Positions 15,561 to 57,881 of a stretch of DNA of 64,000 nucleotides are shown here, piece by piece (position 1 is the stretch's first letter; every line of letters begins with the position of its first letter). Made by a program: the position numbers and the translations under genes. The notes under the pieces were generated by a model. It had not been told where the DNA came from. It was given only the letters and a program-made list of their open reading frames with translations, and did not search any database. The DNA comes from Bryoerythrophyllum caledonicum. Taxonomy: Eukaryota > Streptophyta > Bryopsida > Pottiales > Pottiaceae. The stretch spans positions 13,831,218 to 13,895,217 of the forward strand of contig OZ020514.1 of assembly GCA_963971425.1 (NCBI GenBank), in the 5' to 3' direction.

Positions 15561-15629
15561 AGATCTTTCGATCAATGAAAGCCACGAGAGGGTCTAGTGG
15601 TTATTTATAAACCTCAATTTAGTGTGTTC

Positions 15630-22786: not shown

Positions 22787-22959
22787 CCTGCATTCCAATG
22801 AGATGAATATTAAATAACCCTGACAAATAAGATTGGGAAAATATCTTGTAGGAATAGACATCAATGAAGAAGCATAGGAGGAGGGTAATTAATCTCGATT
22901 CGTGGTAAGGTCTGGTGCTTAAAAATAACTATGATTTAAGTGTGTTGACATTGTAAACC

Positions 22960-23380
22960 AGGCAAATTTAGCTCGACTCGAGGTAAACTCATGCGGTATT
23001 TTATGACAAGTATAAAATTTCATGCGATTAGTTTTAATCCGAATATGAAATCATCTCACCCTAGTCAGTGACAATTAAGCCCGACCCAACCTAAATTAAT
23101 GACTATCAGACTCATTGTCATTTTTTCTCGAGTCGAGTTAAACAAAAATAGAAAATAAGGTATGATAGTTTAGCTCGAGTCGAGCTTAACTGTCATTGGA
23201 CAGAAAGAAAGTCAGTTTAGCTCGAGTCGCGCTAAATTGTCTTACAATATTGATTTGACAGTTTAGCTCGAGTCGAGCTAAACTGTAGATACATTATAGT
23301 AAGACAGTTTAGCTCGAGTCGAGCTAAACTGTCAATACATTATAGTAAGACAATTTAGCTCGACTCAAGCTAAACTGTCC
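22960..23380. repeat. Family-1 palindrome array upstream of T1
   Basis: Seven copies of a 21-bp palindrome, core AGCTCGAGTCGAGCT with TTT/AAA arms, at about 22970, 23127, 23170, 23217, 23262, 23307 and 23353. The last five are spaced about 45 bp and extended by ACAG...CTGT. Several copies are perfect palindromes around one central base. The array lies between the T1 start and the non-coding middle of the element. Confidence 0.9.
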
Positions 23381-23385
23381 TTCCG

Positions 23386-25489
23386 TGATTCTCAGCGTCT
23401 TCTTAGGGATTCATATGGTAAAACTCTTCAGCTTGTGAATCTGACTAGGTTTTAGGGTTTGGGGTTTAGGGTTCACATTACTACAACCCAAATCTTTCTG
23501 TCAGTCGTCACGAAACTCGCAGTGATGCTTCTAAATCACAGTAGCAACTGGAACCACCGCAATAACCCTACACACTGTCACATCCTAATTGCTAGAGACT
23601 GTGCATGGAGAATGCAAGAAGTATACATTATGTACCTTATGAAGAAGACAACTGGTGCGTTGTTGCCTCGCACAAGCGTCCTACTCAACCGTGCGCAACC
23701 TATAGATGTTACCCTCCTCAACCTCCGACAGTTGTTCTACCTCCAAGCCTCTCCACAACAACCTTGTAGAGCAACCAAAGTGAGAAGGAAAGAAATGAAG
23801 AAAGTTTTCGAGGATCGGCGAGGTCACTCACGGACACACGACTGTTTCAGAATTGGCGGGAGGAAACTTCAGAATTGGCGGGGGGACTTTTCCACAGCCC
23901 CTAAAAAAGTGCAAATTCGAAATCTTAGCGGGAAACTGAATCAACTATTTCCTGGCTGACTAAAATAAGGAAGAGTACATACCTCAAATCTACTCGCACA
24001 TGCGAGTTATATACAAGGTTTTAGGGTAACGCTCAGGGTTTGGGTTATATTTAGGGTTTAGGGTTAGGATTTTTAGGATTTGGTTTTAGGGTTCAGGATT
24101 TGGTATTTAGGTTCAGGGTTTTTAGGGTTTAGGGTTTAGGGTCCTTCGTATAGGTGTTATCTTCTGATGTCATTTCATTTCAATATAATAATACTTTGAA
24201 GATTCAAGATATTTGCCAATTCAACTTAGTTATAGAAAAATGTAGAGAAGATATTGAGATGATTAAAAAATAATTTGTATTACAATCCAAATAGGACTTA
24301 TCTATTATGTTGAAATCAAAGACCTTAACAAACGAGTAGCATTCACCACAAAAAAAAACATGTTATATGTGCACGTGTATTTTTAGCAAAGAAGTATGTA
24401 TTCAAACATCCTTTGGACATCATTTCTTTGGGGTTTTAAAAATGTGCATCATGTTACTATCTTGTCATCAATTGAGAATGTGCATTCTTTGGCAAGAATC
24501 CCATGTGCCCTCATGGTCTGAATTTCAAATTGAAATTGGTTACTATCCACTTAGAGGTACTCAAAGACTTGAAATGTGCGCAAACTAATATTAATTTTGG
24601 ATTCAAATATCTTATATTTGAGTTCACATTGTATTATCATGAGTTTAGGGTGTGGCAATCTAAGCATGACATGAAAGATGGAAGAATTCTTGACCATACA
24701 CAATTTATTTCATGTTTTGACGTGAAATTAAAGACTTTGTCATTTGTAAAACATAGAGAGTGGAACAATTTTTAATGATTTAAACAAGAAACGGAGAGAC
24801 CTCCTCATGACAAAAAAAGGATAATCAAAATATAAAATATAACTAATACAAAGTGTACCACTTAGTGCATCAGGCATAATTTAATGTTTGTAATGTAAGT
24901 AATTTTGAATTTATTTATACATGCAAAAAAGGAATAATTAGTTTTTGAGCACGTTCTAGTGGTCGCAAATTATATTTGAAATTCTCAAAATTTTGTAGAA
25001 GGATGATAAAAGTCATGAGGCATAATTATTAGTAATTTATTTTCTCAATGAACGTCTTCAATAAAAGTTATGCGAGCCAAAAGAGAAACTTCTCGATTGC
25101 CGGCACGTCAGGCAACCTAAAAAACATTTTGCTATGACACAGTATGGAATGTGATATTTTCAATACATAGAAGTAATATTAGAACGAATGATATTGTAGA
25201 AAAACATGTTATTTTTCTAGTGAAAAACAAGACTACATCCCAATTCATACATTTTCACACATTGTCACATATTATTGATTTAGGGTACCAAGAATACTTA
25301 GACTTCATATCCACCGAAGACTATGGGATCGTCATATTGTTTTGCTTTTTAATATTACTACTGGAGATTTAGGTCCACATATTATGAAAATCCTTTTAAA
25401 ATTCAAAAGATTACTATTTCACTTGTGAAATACTTAACCATAAAGAGAAGTACGGAGTTCAAAATGATTGTTTGTAGAAGTGGATATAC
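23386..25489. other. Non-coding middle of the element, with telomere-like repeats
   Basis: 23445-23470 and 24015-24145 contain degenerate TTTAGGG repeats, the plant telomere type. The 166-codon frame at 23459-23959 starts from a non-ATG codon and has no recognisable motif. 24200-25489 is AT-rich with nothing recognised. Confidence 0.5.
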
Positions 25490-25725
25490 ACATTGCACAT
25501 ACATCAGCTCGGTTTTTAGGAGAGGTGTGCGCCATCACTTTGTGCAATGAACCAAAAGGAGTGTGTGCACACATGTTAGCTCCAGTAGCGCTAATGTGTG
25601 CCTCATCACTAGGTGCAGTGAACAAAAAAGAAAATATGCACAGTTTAGCTCTACTAGCGCTAAATTGTGCACCATCACTAAATGGAGTAGATTAGAAAGC
25701 AAAAATGCACTATGTAGCTCCAGTA
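25490..25725. repeat. Palindrome variant 1b, three diverged units
   Basis: Units of about 70-75 bp with TTAGCTC...GCGCTAA arms and the linker GTGCACCATCACTAAATG; see 19546-19650. Overlapping frames on both strands are by-products of the repeat. Confidence 0.6.
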
Positions 25726-26515
25726 TACAGAAGATGGCTTCTAGAGAAGTGGACACTAAGTAGGAATCCATACAGTAATTGTAAAATGTACAATAACTGT
25801 AGTGACAAAACTATACATCACCCAATGCCAACTACTACTCTAAATGTCAATCCTAGTAAATAGTGGAACATAAAGTTTTTTACTTGTGGACAATTAGTTT
25901 AGGAAACCTTAATCATGGTTTGATTACATCTTGAGCATCATAGTAAAGAAGGGTTGAGTGCATGTAGAAAAGCAAGAATTTGCAAGAAAGAGCTTGGGAA
26001 TAATCGGACGTAGGTAAGGAGCAAACGAAAAATATCAAAATTTGGACAAAGTAGAATGTAAAATATGGAAGGAAAATGAAACAACAAGTAGAAGATTGGA
26101 AATATAAGAACATTCTTCTGGAAACGAAAATGAGTAAAGAAAGGAATATTCGAAAAGGAAAAAACTTAAACATACAATAAATATAGAAATACAAGTAAAA
26201 TACTCATTAGATATCCATCACATATTATGCATTCAATGTGCATTACATATTCAGTAAATATTCATTAAATACTTATTGAATATTCAAATACACATTAATT
26301 TTACATTAGAAATTTATGCATTATTCATTAACTAATCATTAAGCGTGCATTATATACTCTATAAATAATCATTAAATATACAAATATTAGTTAAACTATC
26401 ATAAAATATACTTTTAAAACTTCAAACATTCATTAGGTAAAATTTAAATATTCTTTAATTGTGCATAAAAGTTACAGATATACAAATACACATGAATCAT
26501 ACTACTAAAATCATA
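25726..26515. other. AT-rich DNA, nothing recognised
   Basis: Contains many near-repeats of ATTCATTAAATA-like words between 26210 and 26450, suggestive of an old AT-rich tandem array. No gene. Confidence 0.4.
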
Positions 26516-26700
26516 ATCCGCGCAGTGAACCACGCAGCGATCAACCACGCAGTGAATCGTGCAGTGAACTATAGAAACGATGCAGTCAACCGCGCAGTTA
26601 ATTGTGCGGTCAACCGCGCAGTTAATTGTGCGGTCAACCGCGCAGTTAATTGTGCAGTCCACCGTGCAGTTAATTGCGTGGTCAACCGTGCAGTGCATCA
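26516..26700 (+). repeat. Minisatellite, 24-bp unit
   Basis: About seven units, each GCAGTTAATTGTGCGGTCAA plus CCGC, the middle three nearly identical. Because 24 is a multiple of three, both strands stay open and give eight-residue repeats (AVNCAVNR), but nothing suggests expression. An oligo-T run follows at 26701-26717. Confidence 0.8.
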
Positions 26701-26717
26701 TGTTTTTTTTTTTTTTT

Positions 26718-27500
26718 GAAAATAAAAACTACATTGAAATGGTTGAACTATTGCGTTGCAAAGCAAGCACCAATTGCTAATTATTGTGTGGTTTATTGCA
26801 CGGTTTTGAAATTTAGGGTCTTGAGTTTCTTGGTGTGTCAAATTTGCATTTGTGTGTTGCAATTTGTGCTCTTGATTACAAATTTGACGTTCAAAATATT
26901 TTTTGAATTAAGCATTTAAAGATTGGATTGTAAATTATGAATTGTAAACTTGGAGTACAAAAGGTGTGAAGTTGGAGTTGTGATCTTGGAGGTTGGCATA
27001 CAAAGTTGGAGTTGTAAAATTGCATATTTGAGTTGTGGAGATTGAAATTATAAGTTTTGAGGTGAGATTGCAAGTTTTGAGATTGTAATTGCTAATTGAG
27101 TTTGTGGGTGTGTGAAATTGAGATTGTAATTGCAAATTCAGTTTGTGGGTAAGTGAAATTGAGATTGTAATTGCAAGTTGAGTTTGTGGATGTCTGAAAT
27201 TTGCATTTGTGTGTTGCAATTTGTGCTTATCCAAAACAAATTTGAAACTCTTTATTACAAATTTGACGTTCAAAACATTTTTGAAATTCCATGTTAAAAT
27301 GCAAAAAATCTAAAACCTAATTAATTTTTCTCTATTCTATTCTATTACATAATGAAAATTCATGAATATATTTCAAAGACATATATATATATATATCTTA
27401 TGTAGATTGTTGTTACCTTTTTTTAAAGTATTTCGTGATACAAAACTACATTAAAATGGTTGAACTAATGCGTTGCAAAGCAAGCGCGAGCTGCTAGTTA
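26718..27500. repeat. Repeat pair with Helitron-like 3' ends
   Basis: Two copies of a roughly 75-bp sequence, at 26712-26785 and 27425-27500, share ATGGTTGAACTA, TGCGTTGCAAAGCAAGC and end in CTAA|TT and CTAG|TT respectively. A short GC hairpin followed by CTRR and a T is typical of Helitron 3' termini. Between them, 26840-27290 holds direct repeats (TTGCAATTTGTGCT; GAGATTGTAATTGCAA). No Rep/helicase gene is present. Assignment is tentative. Confidence 0.35.
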
Positions 27501-28310
27501 TCCTATAAAAAATCATTACAAAGTCATTAGTTATTGGCTAATTATATGATGACACATTAAATTATCATTAGATAATTTTTAAAAATATTTTAAAAATGCA
27601 AGAGATGGGAATGAGAATAGTTGTGGATAAGACGATAAGAAATTGAGGTTGAAGATGAGACAAAGAATAAATGCATGCCGACCAGTAGTCAAAACATGTT
27701 GAGCTTATACAATTTATCAAGTATCAAAATTGTGTGCTAGGGAAGAGTTTTGATAGAGGGCTATTACAAAATGAATTGTAGTAGGTGAACAAATGAGGGA
27801 TAATATTCATGACAATGGTGGCTAAAACTAGTTTCCAACTTGTTGACAAATAGTGTACTAGAAAAAGAGAATCTCCACCGGGGCCGAGGGACCGGGATGC
27901 AAGAATAAACACGGTAAAGCCCACTCCGTGAGGCCTAGGCCTGTGTCTCGGCCCACTGGAGTGGCGGCGACGGTTCTTTTAAACAATAAATTTACAAATA
28001 GTACAGGGAGACCAAAATTCCCTGGTAGCATGTGTTGAATCATGTAATTACACGAGGGAATTAAAGAAAATCAATAAACACCCCAAAAAAAATTAGCCTA
28101 CTATGGCGTTAATGTTGGGCGCAGGCGTTCCCTCATAGTGGCCAATTCGGGGACGGTGCGGGGGGAAAAGGGTAACCCCCCTCCCTTCATCTCAAACTTG
28201 GGCACCTTCCCACTGGCGTGGAAAATTCCCCGTCAGGGGTGGGGATGTTGTAAGTACTGGATTTGTACCCTTAGAGTAAAAGCAAAATGAAGTGAAAAGT
28301 AAAGAAAAAA
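27501..28310. other. Non-coding DNA, nothing recognised
   Basis: Mixed AT-rich DNA with GC-richer patches at 27870-27970 and 28100-28250. No supported frame or structure. Confidence 0.4.
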
Positions 28311-28425
28311 TTCACACTTTAGCTCTATTAGAGCTAAAGTGTGCACCATCACTAAGTGTAGGGAACTAAAAAGAAAGTATGCACACTTTAGCTCCAACAG
28401 AGCTAAAGTGTGCACCGACGTTTAT
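28311..28425. repeat. Palindrome variant 1b, two tandem units
   Basis: Two inverted repeats with arms CACACTTTAGCTC, separated by the linker CACCATCACTAAGTGTAG. This is the best-preserved copy of the variant also at 19546 and 25490. Confidence 0.75.
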
Positions 28426-29409
28426 TTTATAATTATACAATTGCAAGATGTGGTCTTAACATACTTATTGTCTGTTCGATTTTCATAGTAAATAATATCA
28501 AACTCATAAAAAATCAAAATGTGAATTGAACGTAATAGAATTTTAAAATCGTAGCTTTAGAACTCTCTTAAGTGTGCTCCACCTAATAATTGGTGTAGGA
28601 GGAACTTATATACATCGATGGTAATGAATTTACTCCTTGTGTAATGTAGAAATCAAAATCGAGTCAAGCGAAAGCGAGCTGATCCACTAAAACCATGAAA
28701 GAAAACTAAACACTATAATCGTGTTTCTAACACTAATATATAATCGTTCACTTCCGTCCAATCGAAGTTTGTGTATTATTGAGAAAATGCTAAGTTAGAA
28801 GTTTTAATTGAGATCATACGAATGAAATTGGAAATAATCACTTTTCTTTTGCTACATGTTTGTTGGCCTAGAAAAAATGTGTAGGAAATATATGAGTACA
28901 GAAATACTACACGCGCGTAATACCTTGAACTTGTTCTAATAAGATTAAATTGGCTTCTTGAAACTCCGGGTATCAATAGTAAAGGTGAATGAATTGTAGT
29001 GCAACCATATGTAATACCCAAGGGTCTCACCCGAATATCACGAAGGGTATCCCGAGGGTATCTCGGGAGCACCACACGGTCACAGGGTTTCGACCCTCAC
29101 GGCTTTAGGTGCCCCCACGAACTCCCACGAAATCTGGGCGCGAGCCTTTTCTTCTTCTCATTTGGTTGTTGACCAGGTTTTCTGAGTGTACTTCCAAGCG
29201 TTCTTATTTTGCGAGTTTTGTGAGTTTATGCGTTGGTTCGTCGTTGCGACTTTGTGCCAGTTTCGTTAGCTACAGGGTTTGTTAAGTTTGTGTATATTGT
29301 AGCGCTGAGTTTAGGCTTTAGAGCGCAATTCACTAGAGGTTAGGGTTTCCTGTGGATAGGGTTTGTAGGACATGCGATTTTTTTGTTGTGTGAGTTCGCG
29401 TATGCTGTA
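28426..29409. other. Dispersed-repeat relic, then upstream DNA of gene A
   Basis: 28440-28890 contains degraded words of the dispersed repeat of 700-1110. 28990-29409 is a GC-richer stretch with a repeated GGGTATC word and may hold the gene A promoter and start of its leader. I could not fix a transcription start. Confidence 0.35.
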
Positions 29410-30236
29410 GCGCTAGAGTTTAGGGCTGTTTGTGTGAGATTCTTTGAGTTTCAGTGAGTTTGTGAGAGTTTGTGTGAGTTGTGTGAGTTCGTGTGACTTT
29501 CTGTGAGTTTCCGAGAGTTTCTGTGAGTTTCTGTGAGTTTCCGAGAGTTTCTGTGAGTTTTTGTGAGTTCCTGTGAGTGTGTGTGAGTTTCTGTGAGCAC
29601 GTAGAGTCTGAAACGACCGTGCGCGGAGGATTGACGTGAACAAGGAACAAGACTTGCAGCTATTTTAGTTGGATTTCTCAGTTTTAAAGGTAAGTGCACT
29701 CATTCAGTCTTGCATTTCTTTCGATATTTGTGTAGTTTTGCTTTAGATCTGATGTCTTGAAAACATTATGATAGCATTGCTTTTGATGTATGTGTGAGAA
29801 AATATATGAGATTGTGTATTCAATGTGCTGGTTTGAATGTGGTGGTTTGAATGTGGTGGTTTGTGGTGGTTTGTGGTTATTCGTCGTGGTTTGTGCTAGT
29901 TTAAATGTGCTAGTTTGTGCTGGTTTGAATGTGGTGGTGTGTGGTGGTTTGTGGTTATTCGTCATGGTTTGTGCTAGTTTTGAATGTGCTGGTTTGTGCT
30001 AGTTTAGATGTGCACATTGAAGTCAATGTTGTGGTTTCAATTGCTAAATTCAATGTGCTGAATTCAATGTGTTAATTTCATTGTGCTCATTTCAAAGTGC
30101 TGATTTCATTGTGAATGATTTCAATGTGTTGGTTTCCATGTGCTACTGTGATTGATATTGTGTGTGTGGGTTTGTTATTGTTGTTGCAGGACGTCTAGTT
30201 CCAACAGAATTAGACTGGAATTAAGGTTCATAAACC
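29410..30236 (+). other. Leader (5' UTR) of gene A with an intron
   Basis: 29430-29600 is a run of GTGAGTTT(CT) repeats. A good donor (AAAG|GTAAGTGC) at 29689/29690 and acceptor (GTTGCAG|GACG) at 30189/30190 define a likely 5' UTR intron. Inside it, 29820-30150 is built of GTGGTTTGTG and AATGTGCT(G) simple repeats. The leader then runs 47 bases to the ATG at 30237. B and B' have the same leader-intron layout. Confidence 0.5.
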
Positions 30237-30247
30237 ATGGCTGAAAG

Positions 30248-31588
30248 GTAAAATCCATGCTCTCACCCAAGAGCCCTAAACCCTACACCTTCAATATCAT
30301 AGCACGAAAGAAGAATTTGCACAAACTGCAATAAATATGCTCTTCAATGAACACAGTTTAGCTCGAGTCGAGCTAAAGTGGAAAATCGATATTGCACTAA
30401 TGTCCACACTTTAGCTCGACTCGAGCTAAAGTGGGCCTCCACTAAGCACTATTGTCCACACTATAGCTCGAGTCAAGCTAAAGTAGGCCTCCAATGTGCA
30501 CATTTGGCCACACTTTAGCTCGAGTCGAGCTAAAGTGCGCTCTCCAGCATGCTCTTTTGGCTACACATTAACTCGACTCGACTCGAGGTAAAGTGTGACC
30601 AACAAAGCACGCTTAAGAGCGCAGTTTAGCTCGAATCGAGCTAAAGTGGGGACAATAGTGCACAGTGGAGGCCCACTTAAACTCGAGTCAAGCTTAAATG
30701 TAGACTTAATACGTCTTTGGTTGCGCTAAAGCCGGCTCCAGCGAAAGAAATTAAAAATAATTCTCGAAAATTCTCAGTCAAAAATAGCATGACCTTCCAG
30801 TAAAGCCAGCACACTTTACCTCGAATCGAGCTAAAGTGTGAGACAATAAACATAAACAACAACTCAAACACAACAAGATTCGGACTTTAAACATTCCAAA
30901 AGTATAGTAAACCAATGATATCGACGACCCAACTCATGTCCACTTCTCGTTATATTTTCACATGTGTGCAAGAGCTTCAGTCTCGCTTCAACCACTTGAG
31001 AACCTCAAAGAGTGAGGTTCGTGAGTGATTAAAGCGTGAACTGAAGCTCTTTCGCAGTTCTGAGAGTTAAACGAGAAGTAGCCATGCTTGAATAAAAATG
31101 TATAGGATAGTCGTTTGAATGAATACTGTAAGTCTCAGAACTGTTCAGCTATGCATTCCATGCATGAGCACTTTAGCTCGAGTCGAGCTAAAGATGAAGC
31201 TAAAACTTGAATACAACATTGATACATTGGTGTAATTGCAGTCTCCTACCTCAACTCACGTCTACTTTTCGTTTACCTCTCATAAATCGTGCAAGAGCTT
31301 CAGTCCCGCTTCAACCACTTGAGAACCTCAAAGAGTGAGGTTCGTGAGTGATTTAAGGGGAACTGAAGCTCTCCCACATTTCTGAGAGTTGAACGAGAAG
31401 TAGGCATGAGTTGATTGTAAGCGTCTAAGAGAACGTTCTCAATGACTAAATTTTGTTGCAGAGTATTACTCACATACTTGAATAACGGTAGACTTTAGCT
31501 CGAGTCGAGCTAATGTGTGACCTCGCCGTCCTAATCGGATGATCAATAGAGCAATCTAATATCTTTGCTCTGTTTCGTGTTTGTGCAG
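30248..31588 (+). repeat. Gene A intron 1 with family-1 palindrome array
   Basis: The intron between the 11-nt first coding exon and the main exon holds about ten palindromes with core AGCTCGAGTCGAGCT (near 30358, 30412, 30463, 30514, 30570, 30626, 30688, 30815, 31171, 31494). The first seven are spaced about 50-60 bp. It also contains two 160-bp hairpins (30930-31090 and 31251-31413). The equivalent intron of B and B' holds the family-2 palindrome array instead. Confidence 0.85.
30930..31413. repeat. Two copies of a 160-bp nested hairpin
   Basis: Copies at 30930-31090 and 31251-31413. Each is a long inverted repeat: outer arms CTACTTCTCGTT/AACGAGAAGTAG, middle arms AGAGCTTCAGT/ACTGAAGCTCT, and a central stem GAACCTC...GAGGTTC with loop AAAGAGT. 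The outermost 23 bp of the second copy pair with three mismatches. This could be a MITE-type insertion or a structured RNA element in the intron. About 80% of positions agree between copies. Confidence 0.75.
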
Positions 31589-33260
31589 ATCTGAGAGGGA
31601 CAGGATGGTGTCGCAGCTGCAGCACTTCTTCCAGCCAAAGCCTGTCGACGTTGACGATGACGATGGGGACGACAACAACCACTTGGATTGTTGGGAGCTG
31701 AAGGACCCATCAATGACATTGAAGTGGACGCTTCTGTGGGCGACCTATACAGATCATTTAGTGTTTGGTCAGACCTTCGCTGGTGCTGTCGTCAATCCCC
31801 AGCACATCGACTTCAAGACCAGAGTTACTGATGTAGTCCACAAAGATAACGATCACGTTAAGTTGTCGTGTGAGACAACCACTGAGTCCTTAGATCCGTA
31901 TTTCTTTACTATTATAGTAAACAATAGTTCATCTCCCTTCTGTATCCTGGATTTAGTTGATTCTCTTAGGTCTTCCAAATTTGAGGAAATAGTGACTCAT
32001 GTCGAGCATGAGATCTCTCTTAAGAAATGGGAGACTAGTAGTGGACAGCCACTGAAAGCAAAGGCTGTAGCTAATAAACTGCGCGTCATTTTATCTAGAA
32101 CGAGTACCTTTGCCGCTCTAGATAAGGCCAAGAATATCGCGGCACGACGCCCGATAGAACTTTCAACGGTTTCGGGGGCTGTGACCGGTAGCCAGGACAT
32201 GAGTCAAGCGTCGGTACCGGTTAGAACTCCAGGTGCGAGAACAAGTTGAAGCACCCTGCGCAGCACTCTGTCTGCTTCCCCCGTCAAGAAGCGGTCAGCT
32301 GCCAAGAAGCAGGAGACCTCTTCCTGAAAGAAGTCGAAGCTCATATCGGAGGAGGAGCTAGCCAATTCGATGGCCTCTGCACTCTCGGAGCTCCCTAAGG
32401 CGCTCGGATACGGAGAGACAATCGACTTCAACAACGTCCAACAGATTTTCCAGAAATTTTGGACGGAGTGTCAGAGCTGCTTTTTCAAAGGCAACAGAGA
32501 GATGAAGATCGAGCTTGACGTAATGAGGTTGCATAATGCACCGCCGGAGTGGACGATCCGTGCGTTCGAACCACGGGGCATGGAGGAGTTGAAGCATTAC
32601 TACCTCCAGATGCCAGACAAGACGCAGAAGCAGACTCTCTGCGTCATGCCGAAGCTCGATACTATGCCGACGACTGTGGAGGAGCTCAGCGACTGCGACT
32701 TCTACATCATCAATGGCCAGCACAGCGTTGCAGCCTCAAAGGAAATGATTAACGGCAACGTTCCGGAGGTGATGAGAAGGCACTTCCGAACATGGCAGTG
32801 TTACATTGTCTGGACGCAAGATCCGGAGAAGCTGAGGAAGATTTCCGCGTATTATAATCGCATGAATCATTTGGTCCAGTTCAAGCCGACGTGGGCAACA
32901 AATATCCTCGGCTCCCGTGCTGTGTGGATCCAAGGTGGGAGACCAATCCCGAAGCACTCCGCCACAGGTGTTCGCGGGTCTCACAAGTCAGGTCGAAGAA
33001 CGGTAGCGGAGTTTGCAAATGACAAGAGGTTTGAGGTAATATGTCTCAACAAATGTCATGCACTTTAGCTCGACTCGAGCTAAAGTGCAAATTCGCTCTA
33101 TATCTGTACAGTCATATGTATAGATAAGAAATCGTCATTCTCTGCTCATGGGTTGCAAGTTAGCTCGACTCGAGCTAACTTGCAGTATTTGGACCCTACT
33201 GGACATGTTTGTATTCCTGCTATATTGTATACTCAAACGATCCTTTTATGTTCTGCGCAG

Positions 33261-35869
33261 CCATTTCTTAACGTGGTTTGTGAGCGCTTCGCAATGATCG
33301 ATGTTGCGAAGAGCCAGGCAGCGCTCAAGAAAGCCGGGAAAGCAAAGGAGCTTTCAATTACGAACAAGGTGAAGATCATCACCGCGACAGATGAGACCTT
33401 CAAGCTCTGGTCCGATGTCATCTCTTCTGTGGCGCATGGCGACCTCATCAACGTCGATTCAACTTGGACGCCCTTGGCAAAGTTCAAGGACGCGAAGTCT
33501 TGGGTACATGAGAAAGATGGGGTCCTGACGCGCGAGTTCTTCAAGTTTCTCGGCAACATGACCGAAGCCGATCACGTAAAAATGTGCAAGCACATTCTCA
33601 ATCGATCAGGGCCATCTCGGAAACTGCCCTACTCTAAGGTGGTCATCAAGCTGCCGAATTCTGCGCTGGAGGATTGCTATACAGCCCGAGACTGGGTGGA
33701 TCGGAGGAAGAGGAAGGAGGTCGCTCGGATGGAGCTTCAATTGATCAGGCCGGAGCTGGCCTTCTTCAACAGCACTGGAGCGTACAGACGTTCAAACTGG
33801 CGGACGTTCAAGAAGAACTACAACATCAGCAAGGCCTCCAAGCGTGCCCTCTTGGATTGGGGTCCACCGGATTCGTACTACGCCAACTCGAGGCAGACGC
33901 AGTTTCGCAACTGCAAATGTGAAGATCTCTCTCCGTACGCGAAGGAGTTCTTCAGAGTCTTCATCGATGTGCGGTCGCGGTTCGTTTCACCACTGGGAGC
34001 CCTGCACTTCTGTTCTTACAAGGCGGCAACGAATTCGCTCGGGACGTGGCCTTCGGATTCGTGGCGCAACCTGGGCTGCAATGTGAAGCTCGGCATCATC
34101 GACTTCCGGAACATCCCTAGGTTCTCTGGGACGGCAACGTCGTCGTTGGAGAGGCCCTTCTTTGACGAGTTCATGACGATGTTCGCATCGAAAGGGCAAC
34201 CTCCCCTCACCGATCTTCCAGCCTGGCTCTTCATTTGCGACAACGAGCAGTCACACCTTCAAGTGACAGCGTTTGCTGAGGGTCTATCCTTGTGCCATGC
34301 ATACGATGTGTTGCAGTCGAAGTATCTTCCCTCCGAGAACGAGCGCCTCGGAGGATACGCGCCAAAGACCAACAACGCTCTAGACCCGGTTCGGCTCCTC
34401 TTTCTCTTCAAGAAGGAGCTTACGGTGATCCCGGCCGTAAAGAAGATCTACGCAGCTCCAGAGCATGTGTTGTACACGAAGGTTCGCAAGTACAACGAGT
34501 TGGCGTACTCCATGAATTTAAACGAGCTGAGGATGGAGTTCTTCATCAAGGTCCTGGAGCTGTTCTGCAAGAGGGGGGATTCTGTTGTCCAGCTGTTTGG
34601 CGGGACGAAATTACTGATTGCAAGTGTGGTAAGCATCCCTGCAGTTTAGCTCGAGTCGAGCTAATCTGTTTATTCCCTTTCTGACTCGTGCATAGTTTCA
34701 ATGAGGTCATGCCTATGCTGTTTGGTGACACTTTAGCTCGACTCGAGCTAAAGTGTCGGCTTTTACTTGTATGATTTTATGGATGTCATTAACTTCGTTC
34801 GTATCTTTTGAAGTTATAATAACTGAGTTTTTGTACCAGCAATTGTTTGTATTGACTTTAGCTCGACTCGACCTAAATTGAATCTTGTTCAATCCATTGG
34901 TGTGCAGATGCTGGACCTGGAGGCATTCTGCATTTCTCACGACACCGATGAGCAGGATCTCGACGACGCCTTTGAGGTCGCCTTGACGTTGGATCGGGCC
35001 GATTTCGATATTTCTGCGTATCACGTCAACTCGGAGATCTTCCCCGAGCTTGGAGATGCCGTTGGAAAGGGGAAGGGGAAAGCCATTGTTGACCTCGGCG
35101 ATGAGGAGGAAGATGCGGAGCCGAGCGCTGTGGTTGCGTGCCCGATCTCGAGCACCGTCACTCCGGATAATGAGTCCCAGGACGACTTCGTTGACGCTAC
35201 TCCGCCTGAGTTTCAGAGTGCCTCTCAATCTGAAGCAGGAGACACAATCGCATCCTCGCGACAACGACTTGACTTCCCGGAGTTGGATTCGTTGGAGATT
35301 TCCGACAGGCCTCATTCAGCTCCCACCTTGGGCGCTTCAACCGCTCGTCCCGCGACCAAAAGAGGAAGTTTGCTAGCGCGAGCACGCGCTCTTCTTTGGC
35401 TATCGCGAGCAGCGCTGCTGCTGAGGATGACAGCAGGTTGATCTCCCTTGAGAAGAAGCTCGAAGAAGAGGCCACTCCGATGAGGTTGATGGAGCAGCGG
35501 CTGGCGGAGCGCGACGAGGAGCTCAAGGATCTGCAGCGGAGGCGTGACCATGAAATGAAGAGGGACCAAGATCAGAGGCATGCCGAGATGATGCTCATGA
35601 TGCAGAGATTCATGTCGGCTAATTTGCCTGTTGCCGCCACAACACCGCCCGTAGTTAATGCTGCGATCCCCAGCCTCCCGCCTCACCGGACGGCGGGTTT
35701 GCGAGTCCGTCTCGCGATTTGCAGCTACCATATCCGTCGGGTACCTCCCCTGTCTCCAGTGGGTCTCAATTGCTTCATGTTCTTGCTTCCGCGTCGGCCC
35801 GCCCCTCCTCCCCTCCGAAGTCGCCCGATCGGGACGAATCTATCGCAGATGTCCCCAGGTCATCGTCAG
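33261..35869 (+). pseudogene. Gene A, exons 3-4: DNA-methyltransferase-like half and coiled tail
   Basis: Exon 3 is 33261-34628 (456 codons) and exon 4 starts at 34908; both junctions are phase 0. The end of exon 3 reads LRMEFFIKVLELFCKRGD then SVVQLFGGTKLL, and exon 4 opens MLDLEAFCISHD. This follows the C-terminal pattern of beta-class N4/N6 DNA methyltransferases (helix, PGD-x-VLDPFGGSGTT, then lgR-x-igiE), with the intron just after motif I. The Asp of VLDPF is Gln here, and no clear DPPY motif was found (DLPAW at 34217-34231 is the nearest), so activity is doubtful. Exon 4 continues with an acidic region, a KKRK-like patch, a coiled coil (SLEKKLEEEATPMRLMEQR, about 35440-35610) and a Ser/Pro tail to a donor at 35869. 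Frame losses near 35360 and 35660. Confidence 0.55.
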
Positions 35870-36079
35870 GTTAGTGTAACGTAGTTGCGAGTGTATAGAG
35901 GCAGAACATTTTGTAAATGTCCAATTTTGTACTCTAGTATTTTTTTTGTTAATATTACGGAGCACGGCAAGCACTTCAGCTCGACTTGAGCTAAACTGCT
36001 TGGCATCTAACCACTGTGACTTGTATCCGTGTCCTCTATGTGCATCCGCTGATAGGGTGAACTTGTTGAATTTTTCCAG

Positions 36080-37290
36080 ATCTAAGTGTCGGTGATGATG
36101 CGATTGCTCAACCAGTCATAGAAGAGGTCGTCCAAACTACAGTCCCAGTCATGGAAGAGGTCGTCCAAGTTTCAGCCGTGCTCGTAGACGAGATCAATCA
36201 TGATTCTGCTGTCCTGGAGCCACCTCTTCTTGTCCCAGATTTGTGCCCCCAAATGGATGTCGGGCACTTCGGGCCCCTTGACAGCATGCAGGGTTCGTTG
36301 GGATCGATGGATGCCCGAGATGAAATGCTGCAGGACGATGAAGTTCTCGAGGTATTCTTCTAACTCTTTTCGAACTCCACTCATTCCCCCATCACTCCTC
36401 CCCCCATTTACCTCTTACGTTCTACGTATTGTTGCTTCGTCGTTGTTAATGAATCTGTAGTAATATTGGTCGTTCTCTTGGCGTTTCCGAACCAGGTCGG
36501 CGAGGCATCAATAAGTGGTGCCAGTAATCTAGAAGAAATACCTAGAGTCCAATCACATATCGAGGGCAGGTGGTTGAACATTGTGCTGGACCTCAATGGG
36601 ATTCTATGCACGTGTGAGCCTTTGAGGCAGGCTAGAGGATCCAGGAACTCTATCCCGTCCATTCACTCGGCTTCGCTTCCGGCCGAAGTAGGCCCTAAAC
36701 TAGTTTGAGTGCGCCCTGGTTGTGCTGAATTCCTTACGAAGTTGTCTAAGATTGCCACCATCACGATCTGGAGTTCGATGATGGAATCTACAACGCGTCA
36801 GATATGTAATTATCTTTTTCATCATAGTTCTTTGTACCCTATCAGGATCTTTGGTCAGGAAAGTTGCGATAGGGTTCCCGAGCGTAGAGTCGGTAGCAGA
36901 ACAATCTACATGAAGGAATCTGGCACTCAGAAGGACATCTTCTTGAAGACCTTATCGAGCCATCTCTTCAATAGGTTGGGTCGTGAGTATACTCCAACAA
37001 ATACGCTTGTCATTGACGACAGCCCAATTAAGCACATGCTCAATTTGCCGGAGAACGTCCTTCTTCTTCCATCATGGTCGCACAAACATGTTGGCGCGAG
37101 AGACGACTTTGTATTGTTGGAGGAATTGCTGCCATATCTCTCTGACCTTCATCAGTTTCCGGGTGGTCTAGCACAGTACCGGGCCGAACATCCCTCTGGC
37201 CGAGAGATGTTTTATAATGATCAGAAGACGTGCGGTCAGTCTGCGAGTATCTGGAACGCAATCCAAGCGTCTCAGAATCTCCGCTCTTAA
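36080..37290 (+). pseudogene. Gene A, NIF/FCP1-type phosphatase domain
   Basis: Exons 36080-36351 and 36496-37290, phases consistent with the donor at 35869, so this may be the C-terminus of the same protein or a second gene as in B. The second exon has the NLI-interacting-factor/FCP1 phosphatase pattern of the HAD superfamily: motif I IVLDLNGILC (Asp at 36589), motif II region ITIWSSM, and motif III TLVIDDSPIKHML (Asp-Asp at 37015-37020) followed by ENVLLLPSW. Motif I is D-x-N, not D-x-D-x-T; this form also occurs in plant proteins annotated as FCP1-like. Substrates in the family are usually phosphorylated CTD or other Ser/Thr-phosphoproteins; here unknown. TGA at 36706-36708 interrupts the domain, so this copy is broken. 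Ends TAA at 37290. Confidence 0.7.
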
Positions 37291-37558
37291 TGCCGTTGGG
37301 AACGCTTAGATGCCTTTTACACTTTAGGTCGGATAGAGCTAAACTGTATCGATTGACTGCAGCTCGATGTTGTAAATTTGGTTGGACCATTTTTTGTGTA
37401 TATTTTTTTTATATATGAAACTGAGATGTTTCACCGCTTTGTTTGTTGTGGGATTTGGATATCTACTGCTGATGGAATGTCGTGCTATTTTGAATGATTG
37501 GAATTTTCATCTATTGTTCTTGGGTATGTGAGTGTTGCTGTGGTTGAAATTTCTACAG

Positions 37559-38406
37559 GATTGTGACTGTCGGGCGTCCGTGGATTCCTTGCTAGGCCCA
37601 GAGGAGTTCGTCCTTTCTCTTCGGAGTAAAGGGCTTTTGTTGCACTCTGCCGCAACCGCGCAATCAACCATGGATTATTCGACCATGGCAGTGGACGACG
37701 GAGTTGTTGAAAGCCCTATTGCGCAAGAGCCAATTCATGATAGGGACAACTCACCTTCGCCGTAGTGGCCTCGTTTAGTTCCTGGGTCCCCGCCTTTAAA
37801 TCCGGATAATTGTACTCCAGCAAAGCGTATTCTCTACGACAGTTTAAGGGATGGTACTTCCCAACGCTCGCTTGCGGTGCGTGTTATAATGACCTCCAAT
37901 TTATTGCACTATTGAGATGTTTTGTCCTAGACAATTTGGTATGTTGTTGAGCTACATTGCACTAATGTAGTTTTGGTTCATTTGAGCTTTTTTTTTTGTT
38001 GGAGGTTAAATGTGCTCTGTGGATCTTTCCTTCTGCATTTTAGCTCCATTCGACCTAATGTGCGCTAGGATGGATCTCAATGATTAAATTTTCATGTGTG
38101 TCGTGTAGGAGTATTCGACCTAAAGTGTATTTCTTTGGATTGTGTGTGGCGCCTATTGTGCAGGAACCATCCGGTAAATGTCTCCGTCCCCGAACTTTGT
38201 CAGGAGATGCTGCTAGAGGCAAATGCTCTCCTTCCCCCACCCGCCGGCAGTCGCTGTCCAAATCAAACAGTGACGAGGTGCGTAGGCGGGGTTTGCAGCG
38301 TCTTCTAGAGAGTCCATTAATGCAAGAGAATGGCGCAACATGGACAAGGCAACGTCAGAGGGCTTTTTTGAAGACGCGTATAGAGGCTTATGGTGGAACT
38401 CCGTAG
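37559..38406 (+). pseudogene. Gene A 3' coding block, unknown
   Basis: Two putative exons, 37559-37876 (acceptor CTACAG, donor GCG|GTGCGT) and 38161-38406 (acceptor GTGCAG), joined in phase 0. The product is polar (MDYSTMAVDDGVVESPIAQE; CSPSPTRRQSLSKSNSDEVR; WTRQRQRAFLKTRIEAYGG) with no domain I recognise. TAG at 37763-37765 interrupts it. The intron 37877-38160 carries diverged family-1 palindromes near 38037 and 38109. It may be a small separate gene or the last exons of gene A. Confidence 0.4.
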
Positions 38407-40103: not shown

Positions 40104-40303
40104 NNNNNNNNNNNNNNNNNNNNNNNNNNNNNNNNNNNNNNNNNNNNNNNNNNNNNNNNNNNNNNNNNNNNNNNNNNNNNNNNNNNNNNNNNNNNNNNNN
40201 NNNNNNNNNNNNNNNNNNNNNNNNNNNNNNNNNNNNNNNNNNNNNNNNNNNNNNNNNNNNNNNNNNNNNNNNNNNNNNNNNNNNNNNNNNNNNNNNNNNN
40301 NNN
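40104..40303. other. Assembly gap (200 N)
   Basis: Exactly 200 undetermined bases. The sequences on both sides (TTTTATAGATATAGAC before, ACGATTTATATCA after) are those that border the AT-rich satellite at 56210-57930, so the missing DNA is probably a copy of that satellite. Confidence 0.9.
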
Positions 40304-40439: not shown

Positions 40440-40900
40440 GTAGGGATTAGGGTTTGGAGATCGGGACGGGACGGAGATGGGGATGGGGATGGGGACGGGG
40501 TCGGCGGACGGGGACAAAAGACGGGGGACGTGGATGGGGATGGGGACGGAGGACGGGGGACAAGGGGACAAGGGCGGGGGGGATGATGGATTGGAGGGAA
40601 AGGGCTAGGGGACCGGGAGGTGGGGACTCAACACAAAAAAATGTTGTGTCCGGAGGACACATGTAACACTCTAGTAAAGATATAGAATGAAAGATTGAAT
40701 AGAAATAACTAGAATCAATTTTTCATTTAGGGATATCGGGTTTGAAGGTTAAGAATGTAGGATGTAGGATTAGGGTTAGGACAGGGTTTAGGATTTAGGG
40801 TTTAGGGTTAGGATTAGGGTTTGTAATAGGGTTAGGTTTAGGGTTGGGGTTAGAGTTTAGGGATTAAGTTTAGTATTTTTTGTTGTTTTCAATGTTTTAA
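40440..40900. repeat. G-rich simple repeat and telomere-like repeats
   Basis: 40460-40620 is GGGGAC/GGGGAT simple repeat, followed by ACACAAAAAAATGTTGTGTC at 40632. 40740-40870 holds degenerate TTAGGG/TTTAGGG repeats. The mirror copy is at 55918-56100. Confidence 0.8.
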
Positions 40901-41301
40901 TAATTTAATCCACAAATGCAAAAGTATATACCTTGATTGTTTAATAACAATTAATCTTCTGGATTTTGATGTCTTTAGAAATTGTATTCAAATTAACGAG
41001 ACTTACTTCATTCATTTGTTAATTTTCAACTAACATCTTTTATTTAAAGGTTATTCCAAAGTTAAAACTTTATCATGTTCAAATACACCATAATACATGT
41101 AGAATATCGCGGCCGCCACTTTACAAATTAAATTGTGAAAAGTAAGTTCATAAATCAAATGTATAAATTATATTTGCAAATGAAATGTATGAAAATAAAA
41201 TTTGCAAATGAAATGTGTAAAATTAAATTTGAAAATCAAATGTATAAATAAAATTTGCAATTTAAATTTACATTTAAAAAAAGTTCACAGTAAAGAAAGT
41301 A

Positions 41302-42232
41302 ATGAAAATTCATGAAAAGAAAGTAATGAAGACTCAAATCACACAAGAAAGTAATGAAGAGACAGATCAGAAAAAGAACTTCACGGCTTGTAGAGAAGTT
41401 CACCCGAGACAAATGATGGAAAAATCATCATTAGAAGTGCCAAATGGTAACTCAGCCGTCGTGGTCGACGGCTTGGTTCCATCATCATTACTTTTTCCAT
41501 TACCTCCCTCTCGCCACCACCAACTCTAGCCCTCCCAGCTCTTCCAACTCCTCCCATTCTTGCTTTTCAAACGCTTCTTGTTTTCTTAGCTTCCCCGCCT
41601 TCGTGTCTCTCCTCCTGCGTGTTGTTTTTTCTTGCGTTGTGTATGGACTTTGGTACGTTAGCGTGAGTTTGAATGCGAGGCCAATTTGTGAGTAGATGCA
41701 GGAGGAGTGTGAGGTCTTTTTGTGACTAGCAGCAGCAAGAATGCGAGGTATTAGTGTCGGTCGAAGGCGATTTCGTAAGCGCGATCAAGAGCATCGTCGG
41801 AAGGTCTAGGAGGAGCACGAGCAGCACCGGTGTTTGAAGGTTCTAAGGGAGCGAGCAAGCAAACAAGCGAGCAAGCGAGTAATTTTTTTGAGCGTGCGAC
41901 TGCAGCTAACGGGTGCGTCTAAGAATTGCAACCCTAGTGCTAACCAGCGGGTGCCTCGACGCACTGATTCATAAAGACGAAGGTAATTTTAGCGCTCATT
42001 CTTATTCCTCAACTTTTTCTTGCATGCTTGAAGGATTTTAGAACCAAAACAGCGTAGTAAACCTAGGTTATCTCTCCAGTTCGTTTCTTATTCACTTCGG
42101 AATAGAGTTCCTCAAATGAATATCAATCTGCTTATACTAGTTACGTATTAATCATGTAAGTAATCAATAACGACTAATTCCAACATGTTTTCTTGTGATT
42201 TTTAAGTTGCACATTGTTTTGGACGCAGCACG
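41302..42232 (+). other. Leader region of B', with UTR intron
   Basis: Matches 54528-55576 (inverted). A short frame (41302-41529, MKIHEKKVMKTQITQESNEE) is conserved in both arms but with frame differences, so it is probably leader or promoter DNA. Donor GAAG|GTAATT at 41982/41983 and acceptor GACGCAG at 42229 define a likely UTR intron. Confidence 0.4.
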
Positions 42233-45200
42233 ATGTTCGAAACCACCTCAAAAAATCCCGTCAAGTAAGATTCCATGCTCTGAATGATCTCTGTTGTGAT
42301 ACACACGAACCTAGATCACTGATAATATCATATGATATTCACTACGCTTAGTTATATTATGCATTGCAATTCAAGGTGCAGTAGATAGAAATTTCTATGA
42401 ATCCCTCCTTATTGAGAGAAAGGTTTCCAAAGCACTTTGTGGATCAGTGGATATAGCGATATCTCCTTGAGGTTTAGGGTTTTAGATGATAGGAATATAT
42501 TCCTATCCTACTCTGCGGTGGGCTTGGGTTCTTTGATAGTTTGTGGATCGATAGATCTTCCTATCTATCGTTGTGGGGTCATAGGATCGGTATTAATTCA
42601 AAGGTTGTTTGTTGATAGGAATATATTACTATCCCACTCTGTTGTGGGCTTGGGTTGCTAGAGAGTTTGTGGATTGGTAGATCTTCCCATCTATCCTTGT
42701 GGGGTCATAGGATCGGTATTAGTTCAAAGGTTGTTTGTTGATCGGAATATATTCCTATCCCACTCTGTTGTGGGCTGGATTGCTAGAGAGTTTGTGGTTT
42801 GGTAGATCTTCCCATCTATCCTTGTGGGGTCATAGGATTGGTATTAGTTCAAAGGTTGTTTGTTGATGGAATATATTCCTATCCCACTCTACGGTGGGCT
42901 TCTGATGCTTCATAGTTTGTAGATCGGTAGATCTTCCCATCTATCCTTGTTGGGCCATGGGATCGGGATTAGTTCAGAGGGAGTTCGTAGATCGGATTAT
43001 ATTCCTATCCCACACTACGGTAGGCTTGGGTTACTTAAGTGTTTGTGGATCGGTAGATCTTCCTATCCCTTCGCGTGGATACTTAGCGATGTCTGGTTTA
43101 GTTTTGATCGGTAGATCCCCATCCCATCATGCCGTTTGATTTGACCATTTTGTTTGTATGAGCAGTGCAAATTGATTCCGTGGTTGGAGACGAACAAGGA
43201 CTGGCATCCTCACTGCCACCATGATGCGGTGAACCGTTGGCCGCACATTCAATAAACCTAAACCGAGCAACTTGTTCATTGCAAGTAATGTCACCGAATG
43301 GGGTCTTGCTTGGGTTTGGGATGATTCGAAGCGGACAATCCAAATTGCGCCAGTTATGTTTGTAGCCGATGTTGCCGAGGGACGTGAAGAAACGATTGCG
43401 CTCACAATTCAAAACATGGAGGTCCTGGATGTGTTGTACATGCCTAGAATTGAACAGACTTGTTGTTCTTGTTATTAAGGAGTTTGTTGCAAGTGCGAAG
43501 TGTTTGAGGATCTACGGCCTTTTTGTATCAACAAAGGATATGGTCCCCCGACTTTGTGCTTTGGTCAGAGATCAGAGTTTTTCTATTGCTAAGACGGGAC
43601 CAGACGTTGAACGAATTATTGATAGTTGGACGGAGCTCCGAGCTTGTCGTGATGCCGCCAAAAGCGAGTTGGCCAAGCAGGATCCGCCTACACCTCCCAG
43701 AAAGAAGACCAGGCCGTCACAGGCAGCTGGGGAGACTTCACGGCCTTGGGACACATAGAAATAGCGGAAGAAGTCAGATTCCAAGATTGAAGACTTCTCA
43801 TTGGCTCAAGCTGTGCTGTTATCGAGCAGTTTTGTTTCGAAGTATTTGGCACAGGACCTGCAGAATGTGAGGGCGTTGTACGAGAAAGAAGTCTCGAGTC
43901 TGCATATATTTGGTACGTGCTCCGTAAAGAGACTCGACGATGCGAAGATTGACCTCGTTGTCGGAATTCAACGTCTGCATAGGGCCACACTTGGGGTGGT
44001 GGTGTATCGGAAGCTCGAGAAGAAACGTGTTGGCGAGATCGTTGACCACGAGCGAACGATGCCGTTTCAAGCTTCGCTCCAGCATCTGTACGTTATGCCG
44101 ATTAAAAACAAGCCTGCTGGTGACGATTTTAGTGTGGATCCCATCGATAGTTTATTCAAGTATTTTCTGACAAAGCCGACAAGACGGGACATTACAGATG
44201 ATACGCACTACGTTATCATCGGTGGGCAGCACTGCGATGCTACGCATAAAGTCCTTATTGCCGAGAAGCCTCTTAGTGATGATGAACTAGCCGACGCACA
44301 AAGCTTCATAATTACCATCATTTGGGCATATCCAGCCAATTTTGGGAGGTTATGCTATTACTCAAGAATCCTTAACCAAGATCTGGCCGGAGTTACGGCG
44401 GAGAGCAACTATCTTACTCAACTGGGACTTGCACGAAAGAGCTGGGCCCAGGCGGGGTATCCAAAGCCGTCTCCAAATGGTTTGGCACACTCGCTTCAAT
44501 TCAATGTAAGTCTGATACCATTTGTTAAATTGCATTTTCTTGTCCGCGTTGTTGTGTTGTTTACAACGGAGTTGATCGGAATATATTCCTATCCCAAGGG
44601 TCCTCTAATCACCGCAGAGATCAAAATATCTTTCTATCCGCAGTGTCCTTTGACGTCTGTTATTAATGTTGGATGTTGTCGTTCTAAGGATTTTCCCATG
44701 CACCTTTTGACCCCGTTGCATTAGCGTATGCTCTAACTTCGCTGCCTCTAGACTTCGCGTCATTCTTATAGATCGAAAGATCTTCCTATCTTCTCTGCCT
44801 TTAGACTTCATATCATTCTTGTAGATCGAAAGATCTTCCTATCTTCTCTGGCTCTAGACTTCGCATCATTCTTTTAGATCGAAAGATCTTCCTATCTTCT
44901 CTGGCTCTAGACTTCGCATCATTCGTATAGATTGAAAGATCTTCCTATCCTCAGCGTCTCTCTAGATGGGAAGATCTTCCTATCATACCCTCGTGCTTTC
45001 TTTGATCCGAGTCTCTGATGATGTTCTTTGTGTCAATTTTTTCGTGCAGGCTTGGCTAGATAAGGTTCCCGCTATTTTCACGAAGAATGACTTCACAAAA
45101 GATGATGCCACCTGTCAGCCAAAGTTGCCGCTTCTCTTTGTCGATGAGCGGGTTTATCAGACCTGGCTTAGCATCTAGGAGAACTGGATTAGTGGTCTAC

Positions 45201-45460
45201 TACCTGATCCATACGGGGTGCAATGCACTTTTTCTGGCGGTGCGGACGGCGACTCTGCCGACGAGGCCGATGATGCGGATGTTGTGGTGAGGAGGGCAAA
45301 GCAAAGGCGGTACCAAAGTAGGGCCTTGAGAAAGGCCGATCTTCAGCCGCTGTATGCCATGTGGGAGACCGATATTGACAGAGTTGCTAAGCTGGTCATG
45401 GTAAAGAAGTGCTCGATTAAGTCGACGAAGTCCACGAAGAAGGCTTCTGTTCTTAAGGGA
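42233..45460 (+). pseudogene. B', truncated ParB-type element gene
   Basis: Same gene as B (49667-54527). Exon 1 is 42233-42264 (ATGTTCGAAACCACCTC..., 32 nt, donor GTCAA|GTAAGA), and the start ATG is kept here. The main exon (about 43151-44506) has many frame changes and stops. It still shows LVVGIQRLHRATLGVVVYRK, then DDTHYVIIGGQHCDATHKV (ParB-like motif near 44216) and IIWAYPANFGRL, to the donor AAT|GTAAGT at 44506. The second exon starts AWLDKVPAIFTKNDF at 45051. It is cut at 45460, where a reverse-transcriptase fragment is joined in frame. The intron 44507-45050 holds six family-2 motifs. Confidence 0.7.
42437..43110 (+). repeat. Tandem 125-bp units with two alternating palindromes
   Basis: Five units of about 125 bp in intron 1 of B'. 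Each unit has one GATCGGAATATATTCCTATC-type palindrome (near 42492, 42616, 42737, 42864, 42988) and, about 60 bp on, one GATCGGTAGATCTTCCTATC-type palindrome. The linker contains CCACTCTGCGGTGGGCTTGG. The mirror array is at 53760-54290. Confidence 0.85.
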
Positions 45461-46183
45461 GTCATCAAAAAAGAAGAATTGGATAAGTTATTGGATGTGG
45501 GATTTATATATCCAGTACCCTGTAGCAAATGGGTTTCACCAATTGTTATGGTTCCGAAAAAGAATGGGAAAATTCGTATTTGTCAAGACTTTTGGAAATT
45601 GAATGCAGCGACTAAGAAGGATTATTTTCCATTACCGTTTACAGATAGTATATTAGATGCTGTAGCTGGACATGAATGTTATTCTTTTTTAGATGGATTT
45701 TTTGGTTATAATTAGGTGAAAATTGCTAAAGAAGATCAATTGAAGACTACTTTTACAACGGACTGGGGAACATTTGCGTACAAAGTAATGCCATTTGGAC
45801 TTTATAATGCACCTGCCACATTTCAACAGGTGATGACACAAGCTTTTCAAGAGTATTTGAGAATTTCTAGGGAGATATTTTTAGATGACTTTTGTACGTT
45901 TAGTTCACGAGCGAGACATTTGGAATGTTTGGGAAAGTGTTTAGAACAATGTGCAAAATATGGAATCTCTCTACATACAGACGATTGTCAATTCGGGGTA
46001 CCCTTTGGTAAATTATTGGGTCATATAGTTTCAACTGATGGTATTGCTACAGACCCTGATAAAGTTAAGCTTATATTAAATTTACCGCAACCGGATACAG
46101 TAACGGGAGTTCGTGGCTTTGTTGGACATGTTACTTATTATATGCCACATTTAACTAAATCTAGACTTTATGATGTAATCTAG
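45461..46183 (+). pseudogene. Ty3/gypsy reverse transcriptase fragment
   Basis: About 240 codons of a Ty3/gypsy pol gene: KWVSPIVMVPKKNGKIRICQ (fingers), FPLPFTDSILDAVAGH, MPFGLYNAPATFQQVM, the catalytic FLDDF motif, and the connection LLGHIVSTDGIATDPDKV, ending TKSRLYDVI. TAG at 45713-45715 (for CAG after GYN) interrupts it. Protease, RNase H, integrase and LTRs are absent. It begins exactly where the inverted-repeat arm ends, so it marks a rearrangement or insertion breakpoint. The open frame across the junction is fortuitous. Confidence 0.9.

Positions 46184-57835: not shown

Positions 57836-57881
<46 letters not shown>

Follow-up and report, generated by a model that had tools for sequence, protein, structure and literature searches.

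Why should a moss gene combine a domain resembling ParB and DGQHR proteins with parts that resemble a DNA methyltransferase and an FCP1/NIF phosphatase? This question is raised by gene A, a real but decayed gene (in-frame TGA codons, frame changes) on the plus strand of a 64,000-nucleotide stretch of Bryoerythrophyllum caledonicum (contig OZ020514.1, positions 13,831,218 to 13,895,217), which is referred to below as the window and to which all coordinates apply. A previous interpretation made from the letters alone, here called the sequence-only reading, had considered this protein architecture undescribed, had named gene B as a diverged relative and had suggested a self-recognition or chromatin/transcription-modulating module. 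The explanation that we favor, albeit tentatively, is that gene A encodes a self-recognition protein of a mobile element, which would bind the element's own motif, most likely for anti-silencing. The self-recognition part of the earlier suggestion has become the leading reading because of element-specific palindromes, which the sequence-only reading had missed: one type is common to gene A and a neighbouring DUF7869 gene, the other to gene B and a further gene of the DUF7869-like kind.

Lineage-specific palindromes in non-coding DNA

A dyad scan of the window revealed two dominant palindrome types, A and B. The A-type palindrome (TTTAGCTCGASTCGAGCTAAA, 21 bp) is present at 24 sites with up to 3 mismatches, spanning 19614-35995, compared to 0.00 expected, and the B-type palindrome (GATMRRAAKATMTTYYKATC, 20 bp) at 41 sites with up to 2 mismatches, compared to 0.04 expected. 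Fourteen of the A-type sites are located in four of the six introns of gene A, i.e. eight in intron 1 (30357-31514), two in intron 2 (33064-33179), three in intron 3 (34645-34877) and one in intron 4 (35975-35995). Outside gene A, seven sites lie upstream of the A-lineage DUF7869 gene (22967-23374), partly as a 46-bp tandem array, and three with a variant centre are found elsewhere. At the B-lineage DUF7869-like gene there are seven B-type sites (13615-15573), of which five lie upstream of the gene and two in the interval separating its matched parts; the other 34 (42488-54271) occupy introns and flanks of two gene B copies. In either lineage, the motif thus occurs at the DUF7869 gene as well as at the second gene. 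Variant dyads with another centre (such as CTCTACTAGAG) occur in related repeats at 19614, 25644, 28318 and 28380 and may mark a third lineage.

None of the 24 A-type and none of the 41 B-type palindromes overlaps a modelled coding exon; at gene B, some sites lie inside stop-to-stop open reading frames (ORFs) just beyond exon ends that were set by eye. For the A-type, this avoidance of exons corresponds to p ~5e-6 if the sites are treated as independent and uniform over gene A, tandem copies not being independent. The core of eight intronic A-type sites shows an identity of 0.90, compared to 0.26-0.31 at a distance of 5-45 bases (0.58 and 0.45 for the first 5 flanking bases, and 0.257 for random intron 20-mers), and eleven hand-picked B-type sites show 0.79 in the core and 0.26-0.31 in the flanks. 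Because only the core is shared and the flanks are near background, the isolated sites are not fragments of a longer common repeat. Some sites stand in tandem arrays with periods of 46, 52, 53, 55 or 126 bases. The two arms of the A-type palindrome covary, with 25 double-change cells among 23 of the 24 sites compared to 11.2 in shuffles, and none of 500 shuffles was as high. The A-type palindrome was found in none of the viral contigs.

Gene A is conserved in mosses

The exons proposed for gene A in the sequence-only reading hold: the six-exon model has GT/AG splice sites throughout and its reading frames join, the ends of exons 5 and 6 being set by reading the sequence. Exon 1 (30237-30247) is followed by exon 2 (31589-33035), which encodes an N-terminal domain and then the DGQHR/ParB-like domain with FYIINGQH at 32700-32723, and by exon 3 (33261-34628), which covers the middle region together with the larger part of the methyltransferase-like half, including a motif-I-like stretch at 34575-34628. 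The methyltransferase-like half ends in exon 4 (34908-35869), which also holds acidic and heptad-like segments and in which the reading frame shifts internally; exon 5 (36080-36351) forms a linker and exon 6 (36496-37290) encodes the NIF-like domain with DLNG and IDDSP. In-frame TGA codons are located at 32247 and 32325 in exon 2 and at 36706 in exon 6. Alternative 3' exons (37559-38406) match the C-termini of the Ceratodon proteins P0016 and P0014, and since these two proteins match 37559-37852 and 38194-38403, gene A seems to end alternatively at 37290 and 38406; the span of 30237-38406 given earlier fits the second of these ends. An acidic tail was likewise predicted correctly (20% D/E compared to 8% K/R in the exon 4 part), and the proposed coiled coil may correspond to a charged, heptad-like stretch after it, judged by eye, which is in another frame.

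The joined gene A protein was compared with the 7986 candidates with most words in common, and 18 matches with E<=1 were obtained (best E 1.3e-279, 39-45% identical). All of them are from mosses, 16 from Ceratodon purpureus and 2 from Physcomitrium patens. According to locus tags, of which we take UG and VG to denote the sex chromosomes U and V, 12 of the 16 Ceratodon entries are located on U (9) or V (3), whereas the remaining four comprise 3 from other chromosomes and an unplaced one; entries are clusters, one of which represents 139 sequences. The homologue P0001 matches the window piecewise in four stretches with 36-53% identity (tblastn, E 9e-21 to 9e-121), far beyond chance. Because 15 of the 18 intact homologues carry NIF in the same predicted protein (Pfam scan), we conclude that the domain architecture of gene A is conserved. 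The IINGQH motif is present in 17 of them, the remaining one (P0018) starting downstream of the motif position. Intact homologues hence exist, and the domains that the sequence-only reading had joined are indeed linked in most of them.

Pfam, PHROGs, NCBIfam and PADLOC gave no match above the cut-off for the DGQHR-like or methyltransferase-like parts. In 13 of the 18 homologues the middle region matches PF08831 weakly (best E 0.0027), the match of P0001 falling short of the cut-off. PDB sequence searches gave no significant match (8 matches in one search, best E 0.34, none in the others), the best phage relative had an E of 3, two peptide patterns each in viral contigs and genome contigs led to no confirmed relative, a Spo0J probe gave no confirmed match, and an Rfam scan gave 0 matches. 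The literature matches listed for the protein, DUF7869 and such palindromes include no description, so that the architecture still counts as undescribed among them; a mention in the Ceratodon genome paper is possible.

A DGQHR/ParB-like domain next to enzyme-like parts

Among the 17 homologues with the NGQH signature, 16 read INGQHS and one (P0009) reads NGQHR. We compared the homologue profile with a profile of at least 119 viral DGQHR ORFs gathered by DNA pattern and obtained a score of 46.3 (probability 93, E 3e-7), which was reached by none of 200 full shuffles (largest 18.8). Since the references were chosen by motif, shuffles in which the motif block is kept are the fair control; 3 of 200 of these reached 46.3 (mean 39.6), and masking of the motif lowered the score to 20.4. 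The ParB/DGQHR-like domain noted earlier thus gains support, and the resemblance appears statistically supported but modest beyond the motif itself. According to PMC4619093, DGQHR, FxxxN and a QR pair are the marks of the DGQHR domain. In gene A and in four of five homologues inspected, GQH is followed by YNRVN or YNRMN, with Tyr for the Phe of FxxxN (the P0016 model is without it), and upstream, judged by eye, KR stands where the QR pair is expected. Compared to the DGQHR/DndB, DUF262 (GmrS) and ParB/Srx-fold proteins (PMC4619093), the moss proteins carry a similar IINGQH signature followed by [FY]xxxN, with Asn for Asp and, except for P0009, Ser for Arg, and the moss domain is eukaryotic and fused to other domains.

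The METHYLTRANSFERASE-like half was compared with 32 YhdJ-like sequences, namely YhdJ itself and the 31 ORFs that remained of 49 from viral contigs once 18 near-identical ones had been removed. It scored 25.7 against this profile with an hhalign probability of ~4%; 1 of 200 shuffles scored as high or higher, and three other regions of the same protein reached 14.9-16.3. The likeness to beta-class N6/N4 DNA methyltransferases such as YhdJ covers about 48 columns, in register from motif X to motif I. In contrast to these enzymes, none of the 18 homologues has a DPPY-like motif, and the glycines of motif I are mostly gone, its position reading [FYC]xGTK in all 18 instead of FxGxG. What remains of the methyltransferase half claimed earlier is therefore a weak fold-level resemblance without the catalytic DPPY and, if such an enzyme is concerned at all, it is probably inactive.

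The NIF-like domain of gene A matches PF03031 above the cut-off (E 1.1e-14, 54.9 bits compared to a gathering score of 21.8). It was announced as a following phosphatase and is indeed present, but in the same open frame and not as a separate following gene. The catalytic motif of FCP1/NIF phosphatases is DxDx(T/V). The moss domain shares IDDSP with the FCP1/SCP (NIF) phosphatases but reads DLNG at the place of DxDx(T/V) in all eight alignment rows with residues at that segment, a count that leaves out 8 Ceratodon models skipping it and 2 Physcomitrium proteins without NIF; catalysis has probably been lost. Because DPPY was not found and DLNG replaces DxDx(T/V), both enzyme-like parts look inactive. 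The domains of the gene A protein look like readers rather than enzymes.

DUF7869 genes and a candidate element

The A-lineage DUF7869 gene (19962-22888, minus strand) is located to the left of gene A on the opposite strand, is interrupted by one stop codon and one frame change, and matches PF25273 in two parts (E 7.5e-21 and 3.8e-11). We take DUF7869 to be a transposase, based on conserved Asp-rich blocks. A search gave 141 matches with E<=1e-10, and among the 120 listed the identities are 81% to the metagenome protein P0019, 63% to a Ceratodon protein and 51% to a Physcomitrium protein; P0019 was found in none of the viral contigs. The B-lineage DUF7869-like gene (13009-14918, minus strand, with 13009-14385 as a narrower span) is partial and more diverged, with a Pfam E of 1.7e-4, which is below the cut-off, and two tblastn matches to P0019 (38% and 30% identity, E 2e-30 and 3e-19).

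The pair 17289-17473 and 40516-40704 (~82%), a candidate for a terminal inverted repeat, would place both A genes in one 23-kb element, with the B-lineage DUF7869-like gene on one side of it and the left gene B copy on the other. No target duplication was seen at this repeat, and as its C-rich part recurs at 55999-56076, it may be a plain repeat. The 23-kb stretch also contains an assembly gap (40104-40303). An AT-rich satellite-like array extends over 56216-57930, and a reversed copy of it lies at 17179-17318.

Gene B and the inverted duplication

Gene B (46994-53725, minus strand) is also broken, a decayed copy. Its DGQHR-like exon (53725-52364) is followed by an exon that starts at 51872 and can be traced through broken frames as far as 50435, and by a part from 50344 onward, and there are two NIF ORFs, one at 48290-47589 and one at 47425-46994 (PF03031, 7e-6), which has SMNG where DLNG stands. 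The profile of the 18 homologues matches gene B over 205 columns at the DGQHR region (hhalign probability 95.7, E 1e-8), and in tblastn P0001 matches the NIF part (E 5e-8) and P0017 the DGQHR region (E 5e-4). In addition, a phase-0 intron splits the motif-I-like stretch of genes A and B, by eye apparently at the same place. A diverged relative of gene A, as proposed before, is thus recognizable from the DGQHR region, NIF and one intron position, but in the methyltransferase half the resemblance is at the level of motifs only. For the gene B protein itself, none of the 7991 candidates scored was a homologue with E<=1.

Gene B lies within an inverted duplication (40795-45460 and 51456-55985, 87-90% identity) with two converging gene B copies, the left of which stops where a reverse-transcriptase ORF begins. 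A reverse transcriptase fragment (45716-46180; PF00078, 7e-13) adjoins the left-arm end of the duplication. Telomere-like TTTAGGG/TTAGGG tracts are found at 23450-24140, 40770-40870 and 55910-56000, two of them at the outer ends of the duplication.

Proposed self-recognition and alternative explanations

According to the explanation proposed here, gene A would belong to a family of moss DNA transposons with two genes, in which the first encodes the DUF7869 transposase-like protein and gene A is the second. Its product would be a large regulator, composed of N-terminal, DGQHR/ParB-like, degenerate methyltransferase-like, acidic plus heptad-like, and NIF-like parts, which recognizes a 20-21 bp motif that has accumulated in the introns and non-coding flanks of the element and not in its coding exons, with a separate motif for each lineage (A, B). 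Binding would label the element as self and most likely keep both genes active despite host silencing, which would parallel the job of VANC in Arabidopsis VANDAL elements. Taking the conserved architecture, the number and distribution of the motifs, their lineage specificity in the window and the missing catalytic signatures as observations, we infer that both genes belong to a single element, that the gene A protein binds the motifs and that this binding leads to anti-silencing.

In Arabidopsis, the targets of VANC proteins are described as motifs within the respective VANDAL element itself, located in its introns and elsewhere in its non-coding DNA (PMC5735166). These motifs are tandemly repeated and vary from one related lineage to another, and DNA methylation is lost when VANC is expressed. 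VANDAL/VANC would hence be the closest working analogue of the moss element, unrelated to it in sequence. Common to both (PMC5735166, PMC10398659) are a transposon with a separate accessory gene and element-specific motifs that are repeated, often in tandem, in introns or non-coding parts and differ between related lineages. However, the moss transposase-like gene is DUF7869 and not MULE, the moss motif is a 20-21 bp dyad whereas the VANC motif described there is directional and 9 bases long, and the moss protein has DGQHR-, methyltransferase- and NIF-like parts. Since neither a MULE transposase (Pfam gives DUF7869 for the transposase-like gene) nor DUF1985 (none in Pfam scans of gene A pieces or homologues) was found, membership in VANDAL/VANC is excluded.

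A sequence-specific self-recognition, whatever its purpose, is the more probable case, and anti-silencing, suggested by the analogy to VANC, may be this purpose with a somewhat less than even chance. With more reserve, we propose that mosses carry an independently evolved transposon self-recognition/anti-silencing system, in which the second gene of a DUF7869 element reads lineage-private palindromes by re-using three domains, one DGQHR/ParB-like, one NIF-like and one a dead methyltransferase, and of which many similar copies reside on sex chromosomes. If true, plant transposons that evolve a DNA motif of their own along with the protein that reads it would be known from two unrelated cases, the moss one being distant from flowering plants. 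The escape of elements from silencing would become testable in the laboratory moss Physcomitrium, where the motifs supply exact sequences for a simple binding test, and a moss protein family whose members so far bear only the names "hypothetical" or "FCP1 homology domain-containing" would become approachable, as would its occurrence on the Ceratodon U and V chromosomes.

Several observations weigh against this proposal. Regarding covariation, the number of A-type pairs with a double change is not exceptional (5 compared to 3.7 expected, 73 of 500 shuffles as high), and the B-type shows none beyond chance (81.3% paired compared to 81.2%; 25 of 41 sites, 24 distinct, mirrored and repeated copies omitted). 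All gene copies in the window are decayed, several exon ends of gene B were fixed by eye, and dN/dS between the gene B arms is 0.65 and thus close to relaxed (445 codons of the first exon, 2 stops skipped). The linkage of DUF7869 and second gene is observed in one window only, gene A and the gene B copies stand on opposite sides of an assembly gap (200 N, 40104-40303), and two motif types with four gene blocks offer few independent replicates for the pairing of motif and lineage. Adjacency of Ceratodon locus tags was considered as support for linkage and discarded, as the 3 Ceratodon DUF7869 tags among the 120 matches listed are not beside DGQHR-NIF tags.

The main rival explanation, which we regard as unlikely, is a transposition accessory protein, which joins element ends or aids the transposase or replication via the repeated motifs and has no anti-silencing role. 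TnpA of En/Spm and ParB on parS are models for such binding of repeated motifs. That the motif accompanies the transposase-like gene and also extends along the second gene would fit this role, as would a ParB-like domain, which suits a dyad motif, but 14 of the 24 A-type sites are located in gene A introns and not near ends, and the element ends could not be fixed. En/Spm (CACTA) elements likewise encode a DNA-binding accessory protein, TnpA, and carry repeated motifs, binding being predicted in the moss case; however, TnpA sites are subterminal and the domains are not known to be related.

Clearly less probable is that the palindromes are unconnected with the protein and represent a local satellite or intronic RNA hairpins duplicated along with the element. 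Tandem arrays do exist, mutation alone can correct the arms of a quasi-palindrome against each other, and the B motif lacks covariation. On the other hand, isolated sites have no common flank, none overlaps a modelled coding exon, and a loop of one or zero bases would be poor for an RNA hairpin. We consider it improbable that gene A belongs to a moss host gene family without a transposon part, which was multiplied otherwise and stands beside DUF7869 elements by chance: the Ceratodon locus tags, which do not put both genes adjacent, are in line with this, but motifs are common with DUF7869 genes in both lineages, and a cluster of 139 sequences together with many decayed copies suits a mobile element. 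An active writer that methylates DNA and dephosphorylates Pol II or other targets is the least probable case, because the fold-level resemblance to beta-class methyltransferases and the NIF match with IDDSP are opposed by the lack of a DPPY-like motif in 18 of 18 homologues and by the replacement of DxD by DLNG in every one of the 8 rows that cover this position.

Other features of the window

Towards the right end of the window, two long ORFs (59956-62201, plus strand) appear transposase-like by eye, with no Pfam match above the cut-off.

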